DNA of 64,000 nucleotides, from the IMG/VR virus record IMGVR_UViG_3300027970_002011, positions 1-64,000 of that record. One strand, 5' to 3'. Position numbers and translations under genes: made by a program. This DNA is from a virus. The notes under the pieces are model-generated. The model saw only the letters and a list, made by a program, of their open reading frames with translations, was not told where the DNA came from and made no database searches. Within the stretch, counting starts at the first letter, position 1. Each line of letters opens with the position of its first letter. Shown here one piece after another: positions 3,471 through 10,601 of the stretch.

Positions 3471-4214
3471 TTAGGACAACATTTCCAACATGATACTCCT
3501 GTCACCCTCCCACTTTTTGATTTGTGACCTTGGAATCCAAAACTCCATCAAACCAATCTCTTCCACTCTTTTGAGGTAGTCCTCACGGTATTGTTCCGCC
3601 TGAGACCTGTCGGTGATGTATGGGACCCTCATGTGTTTAGAACAAATCTTACCCATACCAGTCAACATTGAGAACTCATCAGTCAAAGTTTTAGCACAAC
3701 ACATACAAACCTTACTACGTTTTACCGTCATCTTACCTTGGAACTTCACAGCCTTTGGTGATATACCCAACATCTTGGTGATATCAATTAAGGTTGGGTT
3801 AAACTCAAGACCGTAAGTCTCTTTGAGTTGTTGACCAATCTTACGACCAATCAAGATAGTCTCACCAGGAGTCGGAATACGTAGTTTAAGAACCTTGTCT
3901 TTGTATTCCTCCTTGTCAATCTGAGCAATTGCTGCTGTGATTTGTTTGTCAGTCAAAGTTCCCCACTTTTGGAACTTCTCGGCGATGTCCTTTACGAACT
4001 TACTTTCCCCTGTGTATTCTACGATACGTTTGAGTTCGGGACGCTCATCTACAGTAATCTTGGTTGGTTGACTGTTAAGACATTTTTCTGCGGCTTCCAT
4101 TTGTTTTGGTGTTAAACGTCCCCATTGGTCAAGGGAATCTTTCATTTTGTTGATAAAACTGTTGTTTCCTTGGTAGTTACGAACTTTCTCGGTGATTTTG
4201 ATGGTGTCTGTCAT
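3471..4214 (-). CDS. Early protein with duplicated WGxLT-KQ motif and DUF6011-like zinc finger
   Basis: 247 aa. Residues ~15-50 and ~65-100 are internal repeats: INKMKDSLDQWGRLTPKQMEAA and VKDIAEKFQKWGTLTDKQITAA (read as IxxMxxxxxxWGxLTxKQ). Near residue 170 comes a Cys-rich segment, CMCCAKTLTDEFSMLTGMGK then IC, matching the C-x2-C...GxGxxC pattern of DUF6011 zinc fingers found in phage and replication-associated proteins. It has its own host-type promoter (4235-4265) and terminator (3441-3464), so it is probably a monocistronic early gene. Nucleic-acid binding is inferred; function unknown. Confidence 0.85.
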   Translation of the reverse strand: MTDTIKITEKVRNYQGNNSFINKMKDSLDQWGRLTPKQMEAAEKCLNSQPTKITVDERPELKRIVEYTGESKFVKDIAEKFQKWGTLTDKQITAAIAQIDKEEYKDKVLKLRIPTPGETILIGRKIGQQLKETYGLEFNPTLIDITKMLGISPKAVKFQGKMTVKRSKVCMCCAKTLTDEFSMLTGMGKICSKHMRVPYITDRSQAEQYREDYLKRVEEIGLMEFWIPRSQIKKWEGDRSIMLEMLS

Positions 4215-4234
4215 GGTGTTTGTTATTTGTTATA

Positions 4235-4265
4235 CAAAGATACAAATAAACTTCATCCCCACAAG
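4235..4265 (-). promoter_or_regulatory. Host-type (Bacteroidota sigma A) promoter
   Basis: Minus strand: CTTG (4265-4262), 19 nt, TATCTTTG (4242-4235). This matches the Bacteroidota TTTG/TAnnTTTG consensus. It lies 20 nt before the ATG at 4214. Confidence 0.75.
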
Positions 4266-4279
4266 CAAAAAAGAAAAAA

Positions 4280-4304
4280 ATCCCCTCTTTTTTTCAGAGG
4301 GGAT
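4280..4304 (-). terminator. Intrinsic terminator
   Basis: ATCCCCTC/GAGGGGAT stem of 8 bp (4280-4287 with 4297-4304). On the minus strand it is followed by a run of T (the A-rich 4267-4280). It ends the unit of the gene at 4313-4780. Confidence 0.85.
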
Positions 4305-4312
4305 TCTCACTC

Positions 4313-4780
4313 TTAGTTTTGAGTGAAGGCTTTGTCTGCCCAAGTTTTGGCTCCCATGAAATCCCAAATGTTCATATCACACATTTTGGGGTGAGAACTT
4401 CTCATATCACCAACTGTCATAACTTCCAAGAACCCTTTGTCAATACCGTTCCACTTACCACCTTTGGTAGTGAATACGTTGAACCAATGTCCACTTTCGC
4501 CCTTCACCTGAATGTTAATCAAAGCATCTTTCTTGTAACCAGCAATAACTGAGTGAGGAGTTCCTTTGGTGTCGTGGATAGTGATGAATCCTGCCTGACA
4601 TTTTCCTGCCACACGGAATTCGTATTCCTTGTCTGTGTCTTTAAGGAAGTTAGAGACCGTAACCGACAGACGTTTGCCGTCTATGATGGTGTCAAATGAG
4701 CCGTAGAATACGTCTCCTGACATTACGCCTTCAGTTACTTTGATGATTGATTTGGTCGGGGTAGAGATTGTGTTTGTCAT
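4313..4780 (-). CDS. Hypothetical early protein
   Basis: 155 aa from the ATG at 4780. The frame extends to 4816, but the promoter's -7 element overlaps that extension, so the inner start fits. The sequence is soluble and beta-rich (VFYGSFDTIIDGKRLSVTVS; EYEFRVAGKCQAGFITIHD), with no membrane segment and no motif I recognise. It has its own host-type promoter (4804-4834) and terminator (4280-4304), the same pattern as the next gene downstream, which suggests individually regulated early genes. Function unknown. Confidence 0.85.
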   Translation of the reverse strand: MTNTISTPTKSIIKVTEGVMSGDVFYGSFDTIIDGKRLSVTVSNFLKDTDKEYEFRVAGKCQAGFITIHDTKGTPHSVIAGYKKDALINIQVKGESGHWFNVFTTKGGKWNGIDKGFLEVMTVGDMRSSHPKMCDMNIWDFMGAKTWADKAFTQN

Positions 4781-4803
4781 AGTAGTGGTTGTTTTTAACA
4801 CTA

Positions 4804-4834
4804 CAAAGATACGCACAAAATCCGAACCGCCAAA
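4804..4834 (-). promoter_or_regulatory. Host-type (Bacteroidota sigma A) promoter
   Basis: Minus strand: TTTG (4834-4831), exactly 19 nt, TATCTTTG (4811-4804). This is a perfect match to the Bacteroidota consensus, 23 nt before the ATG at 4780. Confidence 0.85.
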
Positions 4835-4842
4835 CTTTTTTT

Positions 4843-5148
4843 TTAAATTCTACAAGAACCGTCACAAGCTTGTCCAACGCCATCAATAAAACCCCTTCTC
4901 ATATCAACGTGTGTGTTTTTGGTATAACTTGTTTTTCTACCACAAATAACACAACTTTCATACTCATCATCAGAACGTTCTTCAATACCAACGACATGTC
5001 CGTAATCATCAGTAACTAACTTGACATGTTCGTCATAATTTTTCAAACGGTTATCACGCTCATTCCAATACTTTTCTCTAACGTATTTTCCGAGTTCCAA
5101 ATCATTTGGTCTTTCCAAAATTTCAAGGTTTGTAATTTTTATTTCCAT
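4843..5148 (-). CDS. Hypothetical protein with C-terminal zinc finger-like cysteines
   Basis: 101 aa from the ATG at 5148 (MEIKITNLEILERPND); the open frame reaches 5172 but the inner start is more typical. The C-terminus carries CVICGRKTSYTKNTHVDMRR and then QACDGSC, a C-x2-C...C-x3-C arrangement that could bind zinc. Acidic-basic middle (VREKYWNERDNRLKNYDEH). It is divergent from the plus-strand gene at 5231. Function unknown. Confidence 0.75.
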   Translation of the reverse strand: MEIKITNLEILERPNDLELGKYVREKYWNERDNRLKNYDEHVKLVTDDYGHVVGIEERSDDEYESCVICGRKTSYTKNTHVDMRRGFIDGVGQACDGSCRI

Positions 5149-5208
5149 TTTTATTTTAATAATACATACCAAATATTGAAAAAAAATACTATCAATTCAC
5201 TTTTACTG

Positions 5209-5216
5209 TATTTATA
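5209..5216 (+). promoter_or_regulatory. TATTTATA promoter-like motif
   Basis: TATTTATA on the coding strand, 14 nt before the GTG start at 5231. No TTTG is visible 19-21 nt upstream. Member of the recurrent motif described in the findings. Confidence 0.5.
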
Positions 5217-5230
5217 TTAAAAGTCAGACT

Positions 5231-6007
5231 GTGACCAACGAGAAAATTTATCAATACGTTTTGAAATACTCTTATGTGTTTGACCAAATACCAAACATAC
5301 TTGACCTTATTACCGTACAAATTAATAAATTGTGGGAATGGGAGTATGGTGGAAGATTTAGGAAATTTACAAATGATGATGATTCCAAATTTGCAATTAT
5401 GTTATTTCTACATAGAGAAGGATATTCTTATGACCAAATTATTAATAAAGTTAAAAATACTACCGCAATAATCCTTGGTTCCGAAAACGAAGCCCAAATT
5501 TCAGATACTTGTGATGAATGCGGTGGAGATGGTCGTTATGATTGCTCAATGTGTGATGGTAGTTCAACAGTTGAATGTGATGACTGTGATGGAACAGGAG
5601 AAGTGGATGGTGAGCCTTGCTCCTCGTGTCAGGGTGGAGGTGAACTTGATTGTGGTGAATGCGATGGAGATGGTTATAATCAATGTCATGAATGTGATGG
5701 AGACGGTGTAGTCGAAAACCCCGACAAAACTATGTTTACAACAATAACTTATCTAACCTTCAATCCTGTGATTGCCAACTATTTTAGAGAAAATTTAAAT
5801 GGTGTTGTTCCCGAAATTTCAAACTCAATTTACAATGACTTACATAAATTAGATGAAAGTGATTTTGAAGTTGAATTATTAAACGATTATAAAAAGGTGT
5901 CCAATTATGTTATTGAGGTAACTTCAGACCCTGAGGAATTAACTGAACTAATTTCGGACGCAACTGCCGAAATTGAAAAAAAATACTTATGGATTTTAAC
6001 GGCATAG
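5231..6007 (+). CDS. DnaJ-type zinc-finger protein without a J domain
   Basis: 258 aa, GTG start. Residues ~95-160 carry a run of CxxCxGxG-like repeats: CDECGGDG, CSMCDGSS, CDDCDGTG, CSSCQGGG, CGECDGDG and CHECDGDG. This is the cysteine-rich zinc fold of DnaJ, but with more repeats and very acidic, and there is no HPD J domain. The N-terminal 90 residues are helical and the C-terminal 90 acidic. It overlaps the next gene by 19 nt (shared operon). Phage proteins of this type may bind unfolded protein or nucleic acid; the role here is unknown. Confidence 0.88.
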   Translation: MTNEKIYQYVLKYSYVFDQIPNILDLITVQINKLWEWEYGGRFRKFTNDDDSKFAIMLFLHREGYSYDQIINKVKNTTAIILGSENEAQISDTCDECGGDGRYDCSMCDGSSTVECDDCDGTGEVDGEPCSSCQGGGELDCGECDGDGYNQCHECDGDGVVENPDKTMFTTITYLTFNPVIANYFRENLNGVVPEISNSIYNDLHKLDESDFEVELLNDYKKVSNYVIEVTSDPEELTELISDATAEIEKKYLWILTA

Positions 6008-6519
6008 TAAAATTTTTAAAATCCCGCGGTGGATACCCTAACCCAAATATGAATTTATATTTGGAGATGTTTGACATGACTCAATCAGAATTTCTCATGT
6101 CTATGAACGAGTCTTTAGGTGAAGAAGGTACCAAAACATTATTAAATAAGTCAATCAAAAAATTAACTAAAGACGGACCATTTAGGTTTAATATTGATAG
6201 TTTAGAACCTGGGTCATACGTTGAGTTGGATTTTACAAATTCATCCGTTTATGTTGAAGAAATTAATGATGAAAGATATGTAACAGCCATAATAGAAAAT
6301 TGGGACATACCAAATTCAAATATAATCTACTCACATATAAATGACGATGGGGAAGAAGAGATAAAACATTTTGATATTGATGGTTTATTAGATTTTTTAT
6401 GGGATGAAAACCCGTACGACTACTCCGATGCATTAAATGAATGGATATCATTTCTTACAAAACAAATCAGTTCATATATGGGAATCCCAATAGGATTATC
6501 TGATAGAGTAAAAAAATAA
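5989..6519 (+). CDS. Hypothetical acidic protein
   Basis: 176 aa, ATG inside the end of the upstream zinc-finger gene (19-nt overlap), so probably translationally coupled. Acidic and soluble, no motif recognised; segments such as ELDFTNSSVYVEEINDERY and ENWDIPNSNIIYSHINDDG suggest a beta-rich core. A strong terminator follows the stop directly. Function unknown. Confidence 0.85.
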   Translation: MDFNGIVKFLKSRGGYPNPNMNLYLEMFDMTQSEFLMSMNESLGEEGTKTLLNKSIKKLTKDGPFRFNIDSLEPGSYVELDFTNSSVYVEEINDERYVTAIIENWDIPNSNIIYSHINDDGEEEIKHFDIDGLLDFLWDENPYDYSDALNEWISFLTKQISSYMGIPIGLSDRVKK

Positions 6520-6520
6520 A

Positions 6521-6544
6521 AAAGGTCAGCCGAAACTGACCTTT
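6521..6544 (+). terminator. Intrinsic terminator
   Basis: AAAGGTCAG/CTGACCTTT stem of 9 bp (6521-6529, 6536-6544), 6-nt loop CCGAAA, then TTCTTTT. It directly follows the stop of the gene ending at 6519. An A-run on the other side could make it work in both directions. Confidence 0.85.
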
Positions 6545-6584
6545 TCTTTTGGGACTGACCGAATGACAGTCAATCACTCCACCA

Positions 6585-6601
6585 CCTGACATTATGTCAG
6601 G
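6585..6601 (-). terminator. Hairpin after the 6605-6898 gene, possible terminator
   Basis: CCTGACA/TGTCAGG perfect 7-bp stem with a 3-nt loop, 3 nt after the stop codon on the minus strand. No T-run follows, so it may instead protect the 3' end. Confidence 0.35.
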
Positions 6602-6604
6602 AAA

Positions 6605-6898
6605 TTATTTGGTAACTAAAGCTTCCACCTTAGATTTCATATGTTCTGACAAACTAAGTTCACCAACTGTTGGTGTAACCAAGGAAGTCAAAACAATAGA
6701 GTCAACCAAATACTTGTAAGGAATGTGAACCAAGAAGTCGGTACCATTGAAGAAATCTAAATCTCCTTTGAGTTCCAAACAACCGTGAACCATTTTCAAA
6801 AATAACTTAAACTGAACACCATCAACAAAAGTTTCATTCAAGAGGGTTCCGAACTTCTCGTTCTCAATCCGAATATTGTATGTGAAATTTATTTTCAT
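6605..6898 (-). CDS. Hypothetical early protein
   Basis: 97 aa, ATG start, soluble, beta-rich start (MKINFTYNIRIENEKFGTLL). No recognised motif or membrane segment. A perfect host-type promoter (6917-6948) lies 18 nt upstream, which classes it as an early, probably monocistronic gene like those at 3471 and 4313. Function unknown. Confidence 0.8.
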   Translation of the reverse strand: MKINFTYNIRIENEKFGTLLNETFVDGVQFKLFLKMVHGCLELKGDLDFFNGTDFLVHIPYKYLVDSIVLTSLVTPTVGELSLSEHMKSKVEALVTK

Positions 6899-6916
6899 AT
6901 CTGTTATTTAACACTA

Positions 6917-6948
6917 CAAATATAAAAAGAACTTTTCAATTCGTCAAA
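6917..6948 (-). promoter_or_regulatory. Host-type (Bacteroidota sigma A) promoter
   Basis: Minus strand: TTTG (6948-6945), 20 nt, TATATTTG (6924-6917), then TAGTGTT, the same downstream bases as at the 4804-4834 promoter. Confidence 0.85.
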
Positions 6949-7007
6949 TCTTTTTTTAAAAAAATAGGGAACCTCGATTTTATGACCGTAGTCAACCCAT
7001 TCTTAGT

Positions 7008-7078
7008 TGCGATGCCTTGGAATCGAACCAAGCTATGTGGGCTTATGAGACCCATGGAACACCTTGCCCCCCGCCCGC
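7008..7078 (-). tRNA. tRNA-Met-like gene (anticodon CAT), acceptor stem poorly paired
   Basis: The minus strand shows a T arm CTTGG-TTCGATT-CCAAG (7032-7016) and an anticodon arm TGGGT-CTCATAA-GCCCA (7054-7038) with anticodon CAT. A D arm with the GG loop pair has about 3 bp. Acceptor 5' GCGGGCG (7078-7072) pairs with 3' GCATCGC (7015-7009) at only four of seven positions, and positions 8-9 are GG rather than TA. CCA is not encoded. It follows the HNH endonuclease gene by 4 nt. It could be a functional elongator or Ile2-type tRNA with odd pairing, or a decaying one. Confidence 0.5.
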
Positions 7079-7082
7079 CATT

Positions 7083-7622
7083 TTATAACTTTAAATATCC
7101 GTGGTCAAACTCCCAATGATGGTTCGGACAAAGTCCTACTAAATTATCTTTTGAGTTTATTTCTGTTATCAAGGATTCATCACTGAACGAAGATACAGAT
7201 TTTATATGACAAACTTGAATGTGTTTATCATAACCACAAACTTTACAAGTTTTATCTCCTTTATTTTTTTCATACACATATTGCGCATGTTTTCTAATTT
7301 CGGCTCTAAACTTATAATAAATCCCTTTCTTTTCAAAAAACTTTTTTTTTGTAATTCCATTAAAGAAACTAAATCTTTCGGGTCTTACAATCTCTTTTTT
7401 TTCTTCTTTTTGTTTTTTCTCTCTTTCTAAATTATTAAACTTAGCAGAACAAGAACTATTACAAAAATATTTTTTTCTTACTTCAGAAACTTTTTGGTTA
7501 TCATTAACCCTTATTACCTCACCACAAGATTTACATATATTTGGTGATTGATAATAATCTTCTAATGATTTTTCTCTTCTTTTTTTATTTCCGATTTCAG
7601 CGGCTTTTTGGTATCTGTTCAT
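7083..7622 (-). CDS. HNH endonuclease (free-standing homing type)
   Basis: 179 aa. The N-terminal half has a zinc ribbon, CKSCGEV (~31) with YFCNSSCSAKFNN (~53). The C-terminal HNH fold reads CKVCGYDKHIQVCHIKSV, then NLVGLCPNHHWEFDHG, giving the H-N-H catalytic residues and the structural cysteines. Cleaves DNA, probably to spread itself; such genes sit beside tRNA genes and in gene gaps of T4-like phages. Here it lies between the tRNA-like gene and the RNA-rich gap. Both promoter types are present upstream (7627-7669). Confidence 0.88.
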   Translation of the reverse strand: MNRYQKAAEIGNKKRREKSLEDYYQSPNICKSCGEVIRVNDNQKVSEVRKKYFCNSSCSAKFNNLEREKKQKEEKKEIVRPERFSFFNGITKKKFFEKKGIYYKFRAEIRKHAQYVYEKNKGDKTCKVCGYDKHIQVCHIKSVSSFSDESLITEINSKDNLVGLCPNHHWEFDHGYLKL

Positions 7623-7626
7623 ATAT

Positions 7627-7669
7627 TATAAATATCACAAATATACCGAAAAACCACCACACAACCAAA
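7627..7669 (-). promoter_or_regulatory. Composite promoter: host-type plus TATTTATA
   Basis: Minus strand: TTTG (7669-7666), 20 nt, TATATTTG (7645-7638), a perfect host-type promoter. It is followed by TATTTATA (7634-7627), 4 nt before the ATG at 7622. Either could drive the HNH gene, early or late. Confidence 0.75.
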
Positions 7670-7693
7670 AAAATACCTCACAATATATTTTAA

Positions 7694-7763
7694 TGATTAC
7701 AATCCCACTTCCCCACGGTCACCTATCCACGTCATGCGCTGGTTGTACCAGCGGGTGTAATCA
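7694..7763. ncRNA. Structured element of unknown nature (70 nt)
   Basis: A closing stem TGATTACA/TGTAATCA of 8 bp (7694-7701 with 7756-7763) encloses a perfect hairpin CGCTGGT-TGT-ACCAGCG (7737-7753) and about 35 nt rich in CC (plus strand) or GG (minus strand). Both stems form from either strand, so the strand is unknown. It does not fold as a tRNA. It lies between the small RNA terminator and the HNH promoter. No start codon or ORF of note. Confidence 0.4.
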
Positions 7764-7789
7764 AATTTTTAAAGAGCTAAACAACATCC

Positions 7790-7880
7790 GATAAAAAATC
7801 CCACAACTTTCTATGTTTTCTCAAACACTCGTTGTGGGATTGTGAACCGAGGATTTAACTCCTCTTCTTCCGAGTGTCTC
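7790..7880 (-). ncRNA. Candidate small RNA gene with H-type pseudoknot and terminator
   Basis: About 90 nt on the minus strand between a perfect host-type promoter (7882-7913) and a T-run. The 5' end contains ACACTCG (7877-7871) and a hairpin GAGGA-GTTAAA-TCCTC (7864-7849). The 3' end is an 11-bp terminator stem AATCCCACAAC/GTTGTGGGATT (7841-7831 with 7807-7797) followed by TTTT. The 23-nt terminator loop begins with CGAGTG(T), complementary to the 5' ACACTCG, so a 7-bp plus 10/11-bp pseudoknot can form. No ORF. Not a tRNA. Expression is inferred. Confidence 0.6.
7797..7841 (-). terminator. Terminator of the candidate small RNA
   Basis: Perfect 11-bp stem (7797-7807 with 7831-7841), 23-nt loop, followed on the minus strand by T (7796-7793). 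Confidence 0.8.
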
Positions 7881-7881
7881 A

Positions 7882-7913
7882 CAAAGATAAAACAATTTTT
7901 TCAAATTGTCAAA
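7882..7913 (-). promoter_or_regulatory. Host-type promoter without a downstream ORF
   Basis: Minus strand: TTTG (7913-7910), 20 nt, TATCTTTG (7889-7882). The -7 octamer is identical to those of the 4214 and 4780 genes. It points at the small RNA region and no ORF follows before 7622. Confidence 0.75.
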
Positions 7914-7963
7914 GGGGCTAAGTGAAACTTTTTTGTGGGGTGTCTCTACCTTTCGGTGGAGAT

Positions 7964-7971
7964 TATAAATA
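7964..7971 (-). promoter_or_regulatory. TATTTATA motif downstream of the Nudix gene
   Basis: TATTTATA on the minus strand, 20 nt after the Nudix stop. It is followed at once by a hairpin TCTCCACC-GAAA-GGTAGAGA (7962-7943, one mismatch). It could start a longer, late form of the small RNA. Confidence 0.4.
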
Positions 7972-7991
7972 TAGTTATACTATTGAAAAGT

Positions 7992-8420
7992 TCAATCTTT
8001 TTCAAAAATATTTTGTAAAATTGTTTTTAAATACACTCCTGTATCCATATTATTGACTTTGTCCAATCCAAAATACCCACATTCAGTATGTTCATGTCCA
8101 TCTTGAGCAGTTTCAAGGTTAGGGTACATATACTCGTGAGTATTCAACAAATAAACATACATCATACCTTTTATACTACCGTCTGTCTTTTTCTTTTTTG
8201 GTAGTATACCCACAAAATCTAAATCATAGTTATCTATGTTAATATCGGTCTCTTCGTAAAACTCTCTATATGCAGCTTCTTTAGTTGATTCATCTTTTTC
8301 AATGTGTCCTGAAGGAATTGACCACATATTAGGGTAAGATGACTTGCCGTTTCTTTTGCACAACAAACATTCACCGTTAACTTTAACGACCACACCACTC
8401 AACCTTTTATAATTTTCCAT
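7992..8420 (-). CDS. Nudix hydrolase
   Basis: 142 aa. The Nudix box is complete: GHIEKDESTKEAAYREFYEE fits Gx5Ex7REUxEE at residues ~39-58. The family hydrolyses nucleoside diphosphates linked to another moiety; here the substrate might be an oxidised nucleotide, an RNA cap or a nucleotide sugar. It starts back to back with the plus-strand DUF192 gene; the 14 nt between them hold a palindromic TATTTATAAATA motif serving both. Structured RNA follows its stop. Confidence 0.93.
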   Translation of the reverse strand: MENYKRLSGVVVKVNGECLLCKRNGKSSYPNMWSIPSGHIEKDESTKEAAYREFYEETDINIDNYDLDFVGILPKKKKTDGSIKGMMYVYLLNTHEYMYPNLETAQDGHEHTECGYFGLDKVNNMDTGVYLKTILQNIFEKD

Positions 8421-8431
8421 ATTTATAAATA
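8420..8431. promoter_or_regulatory. Palindromic TATTTATAAATA between divergent genes
   Basis: Perfect 12-nt palindrome containing TATTTATA on both strands. It lies 3 nt from the Nudix ATG (8420, minus) and 7 nt from the DUF192 ATG (8435, plus). At this distance transcripts would be nearly leaderless. Confidence 0.55.
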
Positions 8432-8434
8432 ATC

Positions 8435-8785
8435 ATGAAAGTTAAAATAGACGATAACACCTTTAATGTAAAGGTTATGGACGATTACCGTAAACGTGCT
8501 GAGGGTATGATGAACAAAACTTTTAACGAATATTTTAACGGTATGTTGTTTCTGATGACCGACCATACTAATTGTTTTTGGATGAAAAATTGTATAATAC
8601 CTTTAGATATTATCTACATTGACGACCAAATCATATCAAAGGTTCACCACAATTGTCCACCATGTGTTGATGAAGACTGTGAGAGTTACTGTGGTAGAGG
8701 TTATATTATATTGGAAATTGAAGGTGGTACTTGTAAAAGTTTTAATATTAAAAAAGGAGATTCTGTTAAGTTTCTCGTTGATTAA
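8435..8785 (+). CDS. DUF192 family protein
   Basis: 116 aa. DUF192 signature: RKRAEGMMNKTF, then GMLFLMTDHTNCFWMKNCII and PLDIIYIDDQIISKVHH, with the FWMKN core around residue 48. A CPPCVDEDCESYC insert near residue 70 replaces the usual loop and could bind metal. Most bacterial members are exported; this one has no signal peptide. Function of the family is unknown. Convergent with the DHH gene (4-nt overlap). Confidence 0.85.
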   Translation: MKVKIDDNTFNVKVMDDYRKRAEGMMNKTFNEYFNGMLFLMTDHTNCFWMKNCIIPLDIIYIDDQIISKVHHNCPPCVDEDCESYCGRGYIILEIEGGTCKSFNIKKGDSVKFLVD

Positions 8786-10194
8786 TTTTCCTTTTTACTT
8801 TCCTGAATTTTTTCCTTTAAGACTTTAAAGAACTCTTGTCCAATCATCTTAACAAATTTGATGTATGGTGCGTCATCTCTTTCAGGGTCATATCTATATG
8901 GTCCTGATGGTGGTCTTTGTGCTCTACCCAAATAATTAAGTCCCGAAATATTGGTAATACATTTGTGTCCACCTGAATTGGCTTGAATCAAATCCCAAGC
9001 ATTTACACCAATCTTATCCAACAATTTCATTTCAGGTTCACTTAACTCTGAGAATGGTTTGTCAATGATTGTTTTTAAACTATCTAATATTTGTTCTCCA
9101 TTATCCATCATCATAATCTTACCACCATAAATGGCATCAAAATCTTTGAATGTGAATCCAACTGATTCTGTACCCATACCTGATTCTGCAATGTATTTGA
9201 TTGTTGATAATGGAATTGTTCTATCTTGAAGTTGTGCTTTCCACTTATTCAAAACCTCGTCTTTAACTTCTCCAAGATTTACACCTTTGAGCTCTCTATC
9301 TTTTTTGAATGGATTACAAGATGCTTGTACCAAACCCAAAGGCCACATGATAATCAAAAAGTCCGCCTCAGGATTGTTTCTAAAAGGAGTATATCTGTCG
9401 TAAGAACCAGTACCTTTCAAAGTTCCCATACCATATTGAAGAATGATTCCATCTTCAACTTTCACATTTCGGTGATTTGCCATTGAGTCCATATAGTCTT
9501 TGGAATTTCTTTGGAGTCTTTCAGGTGTCTCGCGAGTGTTCACACTCATCCAAGTCTTTATGTTATTAAGAATTGAATAAAGTGACGGCTCAGAGTCCAT
9601 CACTAAACTCTCTAAGAAACCTTTTTTGTTTTTAAACGCCAAGAGTAATTTGTTAGTCACTAACCCTAACAACATTTTGTTTCTCGCCAAACCTTTTTCC
9701 TTGTCTAATCTAAATAAAAAGTTAACAACTTCTTTTGTTGTTAAGTCATATTTTGCAAAATCAGCAGAGTCAACAGTAGAAATCAACAGAATGTCTGAAC
9801 TTGGGAACAATTCTTTTGGTGAAATTATTTGAGATATAGTCTCAACATTTGAACGGGCTTGTCTAAATGATTTTGAAGCATCTTTTTCAGCACCTACTTG
9901 AGTATCGTGGTGGTCTGTATGAATAACAAACATCGGTTTACCGTGAGCAAAATCTACTAACACGGGCATTACATCACCACTAGCATCAGGTTTCTTTACT
10001 GCAAACTCTTTTTCACCATATTGGATAACCTCAGAATCTACAACATCAATACCATTATCCTCAAGGTATTTCTTCATAGCAATTGCTGTGGTAACACCAT
10101 CTAAATCTTGGTGAAAATATATTTTAGCCTTTGGGTACCTTTTTGCCAAAGCATTAATATCACGTAAACCCGATTCTTTAATAATTTTTTTCAT
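8782..10194 (-). CDS. DHH-family phosphoesterase (RecJ/NrnA-like)
   Basis: 470 aa from the ATG at 10194; the frame also opens at a TTG at 10203, but the ATG gives a TGATG coupling to the upstream stop. DHH motifs: YFHQDLDGVTTA (DxDG, ~32), VIHTDHHDTQVG (DHH, ~100) and VDSADF, with the C-terminal DHHA1-like ANSGGHKCITNISG. These bind two metals and hydrolyse phosphodiesters: ssDNA exonuclease (RecJ), oligoribonucleotides (NrnA) or cyclic dinucleotides. The phage version could recycle nucleotides or counter cyclic-nucleotide defence; the sequence does not decide. Confidence 0.88.
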   Translation of the reverse strand: MKKIIKESGLRDINALAKRYPKAKIYFHQDLDGVTTAIAMKKYLEDNGIDVVDSEVIQYGEKEFAVKKPDASGDVMPVLVDFAHGKPMFVIHTDHHDTQVGAEKDASKSFRQARSNVETISQIISPKELFPSSDILLISTVDSADFAKYDLTTKEVVNFLFRLDKEKGLARNKMLLGLVTNKLLLAFKNKKGFLESLVMDSEPSLYSILNNIKTWMSVNTRETPERLQRNSKDYMDSMANHRNVKVEDGIILQYGMGTLKGTGSYDRYTPFRNNPEADFLIIMWPLGLVQASCNPFKKDRELKGVNLGEVKDEVLNKWKAQLQDRTIPLSTIKYIAESGMGTESVGFTFKDFDAIYGGKIMMMDNGEQILDSLKTIIDKPFSELSEPEMKLLDKIGVNAWDLIQANSGGHKCITNISGLNYLGRAQRPPSGPYRYDPERDDAPYIKFVKMIGQEFFKVLKEKIQESKKEN

Positions 10195-10601
10195 CAATCC
10201 CAACCAAAATAATGTGCAATTTTATCAAATAAATCACCGTAATCAGAAATACACTGTTTGAATATTACTTTATCCTTGTCAGGCATCGCATCCATAGTGT
10301 CTTCACCCCACACACCATCAGCAGGATAAACATCAATCATTGACTGGTATTTGACAATTGCCTGAGCACTTTTTGATTTTGGGTAGTTACCGATTGAACC
10401 GTCAATTTTCAACGGTTGACCGGCATCATCCCTAACACCTTTTTTATTTAAAAAACATTGGATTCCACAATTGTAATTGTATCGTTCAATAGTGGTCATA
10501 CCATTATTGAAATCTTCTTTCAAATATTGTCTTGAGGTTGCTTCAATGTGCATGCCAAGAATTCTACTCTTTTCTTCCTCTGTTATTACAAACTTTTTCA
10601 T
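10194..10601 (-). CDS. Peptidoglycan-binding-like domain protein
   Basis: 135 aa. The N-terminus MKKFVITEEEKSRILGMH resembles a leader shared by several proteins of such phages. Residues ~60-105 resemble a PG_binding_1 repeat: KIDGSIGNYPKSKSAQAIVK, then YQSMIDVYPADGVWGEDTM, where DGxxGxxT is the signature. It may bind cell wall as a virion or lysis factor. Coupled to the DHH gene (TGATG) and 1 nt from the ferritin-like gene. Confidence 0.75.
   Translation of the reverse strand: MKKFVITEEEKSRILGMHIEATSRQYLKEDFNNGMTTIERYNYNCGIQCFLNKKGVRDDAGQPLKIDGSIGNYPKSKSAQAIVKYQSMIDVYPADGVWGEDTMDAMPDKDKVIFKQCISDYGDLFDKIAHYFGWD

Follow-up and report, generated by a model that had tools for sequence, protein, structure and literature searches.

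Features of the locus

The window, i.e., the whole 64,000-nt stretch of DNA that was analysed, is part of a 79.6-kb viral record. Between its ORFs at positions 7083-7622 and 7992-8420 lie 369 nt, which the initial annotation had described as a gene-free stretch with a small RNA gene on the minus strand. The gap contains no ORF, but besides the proposed promoter and terminator it also holds a boxA-like site and a structured RNA, RNA2. A NUDIX gene on the strand of the promoter (P1) ends about 80 nt upstream of it. The features are given below in the order of transcription; L numbers denote the loci used for comparison.

7922..7928, minus strand: upstream inverted-repeat arm GTTTCAC flanking the promoter (cognate versus permuted arm pairing, 59 units)
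7882..7913, minus strand: P1, promoter TTTG-N20-TATCTTTG, sequence TTTGACAATTTGAAAAAATTGTTTTATCTTTG (strict pattern kept in 38 of 44 distinct leader contexts)
7871..7877, minus strand: 5′ segment ACACTCG, possible pseudoknot strand, long-form leaders only (pairing comparison)
7849..7864, minus strand: 5′ hairpin GAGGA-GTTAAA-TCCTC, arms 7864-7860 and 7853-7849, long form only (predicted fold)
7797..7841, minus strand: terminator hairpin with 11-bp outer stem AATCCCACAAC/GTTGTGGGATT, arms 7841-7831 and 7807-7797 (fold, covariation, shuffles)
7828-7813, minus strand: inner hairpin GTGTTT-GAGA-AAACAT inside the terminator (fold, covariation)
7793..7798, minus strand: T-run of six T 3′ of the stem (all 36 variants have five or more T among the first 8 bases past the stem)
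7769..7777, minus strand: boxA-like GCTCTTTAA (matches E. coli rrn leader and spacer boxA; strict site in 39 of 44 contexts)
7695..7762, minus strand: RNA2, conserved structured RNA of 68 nt without an ORF, closing stem GATTACA/TGTAATC (28 distinct sequences including flanks)
7674..7683, minus strand: 5′-terminal remnant of a tRNA-Met gene, TTGTGAGGTA, truncated ahead of the HNH gene (comparison with L063 and L121)
7083..7622, minus strand: HNH endonuclease ORF between the two ends of the tRNA-Met locus (PF13391 HNH_2, 1.7e-8)
7005..7080, minus strand: atypical tRNA-Met-like sequence with a CTCATAA anticodon loop (90-93% identity to L021, L064 and L119)

By its consensus, which appears in published papers, we take P1 to be a promoter of the Bacteroidota type; the start at about 7877 presumes the start-site distance of such promoters. 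A looser pattern, TTTG-N18-22-TANNTTTG, occurs nine times in the window against 4.2 expected, and nine was reached in 2 of 100 shuffles; thus, the match alone is modest evidence, and it is the recurrence of the promoter in relatives that supports P1 as real. The annotated promoter is present at 7913-7882, and further copies of TATCTTTG start at 4811 and 4242 on the minus strand, in agreement with the annotated sharing of the −7 octamer. The partner of the upstream arm, GTGAGAC at 7882-7876, takes in the last bases of the −7 box and the first bases of the transcript. Cognate arms paired better than permuted ones (mean −7.7 versus −5.8; 0 of 2000 permutations) in 59 units of distinct initial sequence, with relatedness among them not removed. 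Many promoters of the RNA gene array sit between inverted-repeat arms, the 3′ arm being the transcript start; arm pairs seen in the array are GTTTCA/TGAAAC, GTTTAC/GTAAAC, CTTACAAA/TTTGTAAG and GTCCCAC/GTGGGAC.

The terminator hairpin has the GC-rich stem and the immediate U-run by which intrinsic terminators are recognized in sequence. Counting GU as a pair, 11-pair stems that include 5 or more GC pairs and are followed by a T-run occur twice in the window, here and at 4306-4278, both on the minus strand, and no comparable one was found on either strand of ten 64-kb dinucleotide shuffles. The annotated 11-bp stem with its T-run is therefore real and not a chance match. The 94-nt RNA from 7878 to 7785 folds at −29.6 kcal/mol, versus −18.4 kcal/mol for its shuffles (z −3.5; 0 of 200 as good). 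The GAGGA/TCCTC hairpin of the initial annotation is present in this fold, but in the longer RNA it gives way to another pairing: the predicted fold of the window's leader including boxA pairs the 5′-hairpin segment with the boxA region, burying boxA. The window's own leader is the exception among ten long-form leaders folded up to boxA, the other nine having the 5′ hairpin in their MFE fold. The element is not a tRNA, as had been stated; neither a tRNA nor an Rfam family was detected in the window at gathering cut-offs, including T-box and other known riboswitches, and only noise was obtained at E ≤ 5 in 6900-8100. A leader peptide was rejected: reading from the GTG of the −7 box, the window has 23 open codons, but in L016 and L018 the frame closes after 8, as judged by eye. 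Elsewhere in the window, at 5231-6007 on the plus strand, there is a DnaJ-type zinc-finger protein with a weak match (5e-5) to the Q-like antitermination family phrog_127, perhaps via the zinc finger only.

Variants and folding of the probable leader

Relatives were collected by searching IMG/VR with the DHH-type gene at 8782-10203, from which the best 80 of 596 were taken; pattern scans added further loci. This DHH neighbour matches only four records of uncultured phages, of 635-735 kb, and has no relative in the GTDB contigs. No DNA match to the window was found among 50,697 phage records. The element is absent from Rfam and conserved in related phage contigs.

The pattern used to collect leaders required the promoter box, a GAGA-type loop, one T after the stem and at least GTTCT downstream. 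It gave 36 distinct variants, after one false match of the 37 (L155, 200 nt) had been discarded; L099, L102, L103, L104, L109 and L111, with the leader pattern and no promoter or hairpin, were also dropped. Ten variants are long forms, with ACACTCGGA and the 5′ hairpin. The other 26 are short forms, in which the terminator stem starts about 10 bases after the −7 box; they lack the 5′ strand of the annotated pseudoknot, yet they keep the terminator and the inner hairpin.

Covariation was determined on alignment A1, which comprises 31 of the 36 variants in 30 distinct rows, the near-duplicates L045, L112, L147, L151 and L156 being left out. In its stems, 90.4% of the cells are paired, and 62 two-sided changes were counted versus 24.8 in shuffles, which do not remove relatedness. 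The two-sided changes fall at 11 of the 17 pairs among the 30 distinct sequences, and the covariation score was 0.41, compared with 0.03-0.16 when slid. Pairing reaches 94.5% in the outer stem, where the outermost pair is broken in 16 of 30 rows. The inner stem is 82.6% paired, with the three loop-side pairs firm and the other three broken in 9-13 of 30 rows. The GAGA loop is invariant in A1; L135, which was found by the covariance model and lies outside A1, differs there. In the aligned sequences, covariation is thus seen in the outer stem and in the upper part of the inner one. In the helix of the proposed pseudoknot, the ten long-form variants show no compensatory change.

The complementarity on which that pseudoknot was based is present: ACACTCG (7877-7871) matches CGAGTGT (7831-7825), C7831 also belonging to the terminator stem. 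Base shuffles gave 7 matching bases between these two regions in 313 of 20,000 cases (1.6%), and a 7-bp helix at any position of an RNA of this kind in 618 of 5,000 (12%). The pairing of ACACTCG with [CT]GAGTGT is possible in 10 of 10 long forms, the sole variation being a one-sided C-to-T change (G-U) in L016 and L018. Short forms have no such strand, and 20 of the 26 retain [AG]AGTG without any ACACTC. The 5′ segment and the loop of the long forms paired at −12.2 versus −4.8 in shuffles, and cognate and swapped loops were equal because both strands hardly vary; the same comparison of cognate and swapped loops gave no pairing signal in the short forms. On these grounds, the pseudoknot was dropped as the core fold. 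The T-run with the 3′ flank was also tried as a partner of the 5′ segment (−10.3 versus −6.4); it showed no cognate signal and is not claimed.

The GUGU of the loop strand doubles as the 5′ side of the inner hairpin, and the 3′ side of that hairpin varies. In the long form, ACACUCG and the AAACAU of the inner hairpin would compete for this GUGU, and two folds would be possible. The GUGU strand may thus be held by two pairings, which would explain its invariance and is the pattern expected of a switch. Toggling of termination by the pseudoknot is a fair hypothesis.

RNA genes downstream of the probable leader

The covariance model of the hairpin was searched in 129 of the 161 viral loci and in the window; most of the left-out loci repeat others. 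The 81 sense matches of at least 42 bits represent 44 distinct contexts, weaker, antisense and truncated matches being left out, among them L021 (41.2 bits, reverse strand), L075, L061 and L043. A tRNA or RNA2 stands within 160 nt on the same strand in 40 of the 44. In L022 and L112, the contig ends within 45 nt of the hairpin match, and neither a tRNA nor RNA2 follows the hairpin in L040 and L070. Because RNA2 or leader patterns had served to retrieve many of the 44, a less biased estimate comes from the 20 contexts obtained with the DHH gene, where RNA played no part in the selection: a tRNA or RNA2 lies within 160 nt in 17, one contig ends too early and two show neither. The leader directly precedes tRNA-Met in L009, L014, L015, L016, L018 and L019, and RNA2 followed by tRNA-Met in L034, L035, L071 and others. 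In forms with a single promoter, 5-17 nt separate the hairpin match from the start of the boxA-like site, which leaves no room for another promoter, and P1 is the sole promoter observed for the tRNA or RNA2. The hairpin is therefore better read as a leader than as an autonomous gene. Since both P1 and a strong terminator are conserved before the RNA genes, controlled or partial read-through would best explain the arrangement.

The small RNA gene proposed in the initial annotation stands as a promoter-to-terminator unit without an ORF; its autonomy does not, given the 40 contexts directly upstream of a tRNA gene or RNA2. As a free-standing gene, its product of about 85 nt would act in trans or bind a protein, with the tRNA and RNA2 using leaky read-through. 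The complete promoter and terminator, the 5′ extension conserved in 10 long-form variants, and the hairpins of L040 and L070 agree with this; the latter two are what a free sRNA gene would leave and count against the leader reading. L070 keeps the promoter, but that of L040 fails the strict pattern, and the hairpin is not conserved independently of its neighbours. The suggested pairing with a target in trans found no support in the window, the only DNA searched: no complement longer than 12 nt was found in the remainder of the window, which is no better than the 11-13 nt of 20 shuffled RNAs. The short-form hairpin, moreover, begins about 10 nt after the −7 box, with little free seed. A stand-alone sRNA is thus possible and less likely than an attenuator leader, to which it comes second; we consider it unlikely.

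The reverse count was made on 72 of the 80 DHH loci (80 being the best of 596). A tRNA or RNA2 on that strand was found in 47, of which 30 have the standard hairpin, 11 have a promoter in the loop (9 assigned by pattern, L067 and L080 by eye), and 6 (L026, L028, L031, L033, L069 and L078) have neither form. Among the 25 loci without tRNA or RNA2, 3 have the hairpin. The hairpin is therefore common, not essential, and RNA genes manage without it in those 6 of 47 relatives. ARAGORN called tRNA-Met in 47 of the 51 tRNAs of the DHH loci, the other four including those of L033. A second promoter within the loop of the leader hairpin was seen in L047 (6442-6560), L059 (11897-12014) and L119 (6171-6226); in such relatives, the downstream gene would be spared read-through because of the second promoter.

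The NUDIX gene on the same strand, ending about 80 nt before P1, together with the conserved T-run, would also suit an insulator, i.e., a hairpin that ends NUDIX transcripts and shields the RNA genes, with P1 lying upstream of it incidentally. Such a terminator, placed between P1 and the tRNA, would stop the transcripts of P1 as well, and in single-promoter forms the short distance to the boxA-like site leaves no space for a replacement. We regard an insulator as very unlikely.

RNA2 has the core CAACCAG.GCATGAC.TGGATAGGTGAC. Its 20-base core was found in 56 stretches of viral contigs, with 28 distinct versions (flanks included) in the loci examined, and no Rfam match was obtained for RNA2 in the window or for the divergent version of L026. 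Loci of the L026 type have RNA2, then a T-run and then a tRNA. A further conserved RNA of the array, with the start AACCTGTCC[CT]ATTA.GAGT after a boxA-like site, was seen in L026 (about 8020-8110) and other loci; its L026 copy matched no Rfam family. Among the matches listed, many of the array's RNA genes are preceded by a TTGA...TAnnTTTG promoter of their own and, immediately before the RNA, by a GTTCTTTRA-type site. The phage tRNA-Met genes (L009 12438-12511, L047 6592-6665 and others) look initiator-like by eye, with a mismatched first pair and fMet-like loops, judged against what we take to be the features of fMet; they also seem, by eye, to be without one of the three GC pairs of the anticodon stem.

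In the window, the usual 3′ flank of tRNA-Met stands after the atypical tRNA, which ARAGORN does not call as a tRNA either here or in L021, L064 and L119. On comparison of the sequences, the HNH gene occupies a former tRNA-Met locus, and little of the original cargo is intact because the HNH gene cut the tRNA. Positions 7794-8440 and 4201-6938 are about 98% identical to L006, L007 and L008 (L006 only to 4850), and 83-95% to L009-L014. The relatives carry tRNA-Met and GOLLD in the interval, where the window has RNA2, the HNH gene, the atypical tRNA-Met-like sequence and a promoter; its RNA2, tRNA and promoter parts resemble those of RNA2-type phages. As the alignments indicate, a cassette was swapped at 6939-7793, with a junction at the terminator T-run, and the lineage of the window lost GOLLD. 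GOLLD (RF02032) gave no match in the window, in its record, or in 7 of 7 near-identical records; these records may be fragments. Of the other lineages, all 11 records tested gave a match, and GOLLD lies further downstream in 8 of 9 loci scanned, the ninth, L067, being a 6.2-kb contig. L006 and the window share 127 identical leader bases with different RNA genes behind them; thus, the leader behaves as a reusable module.

The boxA-like site and comparison with known systems

Most relatives carry a GTTCTTTAA-type boxA-like site. In E. coli rrnB, a hairpin is followed by TGCTCTTTAACA in the leader, and the spacer has TTTGCTCTTTAAAAATCTGG; the window has TTTAGCTCTTTAAAAATTTGATT. For 16S leaders, 80 sequences were fetched from the matches listed, nearly all titled Bacteroidota, and the 72 with at least 250 upstream bases were used. 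GTTC[AT]TT[AG]A occurs at −200 to −50 in 40 of these 72 listed leaders (200 shuffles: mean 0.2, maximum 2), and 38 of the 40, among the matches listed, have an upstream TTG..TAnnTTTG promoter. A pattern nearer to the phage form was found within 400 bases upstream in 18 of the 72 listed leaders, versus 1.1 in shuffles. Recruitment of SuhB with NusB by boxA is not limited to rRNA, and the excerpted text of PMC4807359 argues that RNA maturation, and not antitermination, is the main role of boxA and Nus factors at rRNA (PMC4807359). By analogy, boxA may work in this way in these phages. It cannot aid the polymerase past the leader terminator, because the terminator precedes it.

The sequences compared establish the covarying stems and a recurrent order of promoter, hairpin with T-run, boxA-like site and structured RNA gene. 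The element is probably, in our assessment, the conserved attenuator-type 5′ leader of a phage operon of untranslated RNAs, consisting of promoter, attenuator hairpin, boxA and RNA genes, with the RNA of about 85 nt as the attenuated product. From this arrangement, we infer the start site, termination at the hairpin, regulated read-through, and binding of NusB/NusE by boxA. Transcription would start at about 7877 on the minus strand, and the polymerase would reach the conserved intrinsic-terminator hairpin within about 85 nt. Polymerases halting there would release a short leader RNA; those reading through would transcribe the boxA-like sequence, which would load host Nus factors and allow efficient making or folding of the untranslated RNAs downstream. 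The cargo would be RNA2 and the remains of the tRNA locus here, and RNA2 and/or tRNA-Met followed by GOLLD in relatives. Besides L040 and L070, several points count against this reading: the six RNA-bearing DHH loci with neither form of the hairpin, the second promoter of the promoter-in-loop forms, the position of boxA after the terminator, its burial in the predicted fold of the window's leader, the depleted cargo of the window, the argument of PMC4807359 on Nus factors, and the lack of a NusG-like gene in the 14 phage records searched.

A processing or 5′-end protection stem of the RNase III type, as in rRNA precursors, would share the order of hairpin and boxA with the E. coli rrn leader and would make the T-run secondary; the promoter-in-loop forms L047 and L059 do keep the stem without a T-run. 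The T-run is, however, present in 36 of 36 standard variants and is unneeded for processing, and T-rich sequence also occurs in the promoter-in-loop form L119. That the hairpin serves mainly in this way seems quite unlikely. A more specific version of the attenuator leader can be put forward tentatively, as a doubtful possibility: these phages may have a new class of RNA attenuator, in which a bistable fold (5′ strand versus inner hairpin) decides the transcription of an island of untranslated RNAs (initiator-like tRNA, RNA2, GOLLD), in an array with rRNA-leader-like units and promoters between inverted-repeat arms.

An rRNA-like attenuator-type leader before RNA islands would give a handle on the timing of these phage RNAs and on the host factors that they may borrow. 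We know of no function for GOLLD; the lineage of the window, with a natural loss of GOLLD beside flanks 98% identical to those of GOLLD carriers, offers a comparison for the need of it. The loci L009, L016 and L019 carry leader, tRNA-Met and GOLLD in series, whereas the window record has no GOLLD, and the leader and RNA2 lie outside the GOLLD model. The location of GOLLD near tRNA islands is already in print and its cage structure has been solved; the excerpted text of the 2025 structure paper describes no leader or promoter of its own (PMC12286853). In open-licence PMC, no paper was found that joins GOLLD with boxA, or GOLLD with Bacteroidetes and tRNA.

In the case of the LoaP/dfn-type leader, as described in the excerpted text of PMC12691694, a small 5′ hairpin is followed by an intrinsic terminator, which is also the order in the long form of the phage leader. 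The phage loops are GUUAAA (5′ hairpin) and GAGA (inner hairpin) and not the UNCG of that text, and the short forms, unlike the leader described there, have no 5′ hairpin (PMC12691694). A NusG-like antiterminator (PF02357) was found in 0 of 14 phage records, none of which is known to be complete.

Attenuation occurs in the rrn leaders of E. coli, whose leader hairpin is boxB. The phage leader differs from them in the T-run terminator between promoter and boxA, so that boxA is not upstream of the leader terminator, and in its cargo, which is tRNA, RNA2 and, in relatives, GOLLD instead of rRNA; the binding of Nus factors is putative. In both, promoter, hairpin and boxA are followed by an untranslated structured RNA, and the phage boxA sequence matches that of the rRNA leaders of E. 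coli and many Bacteroidota.
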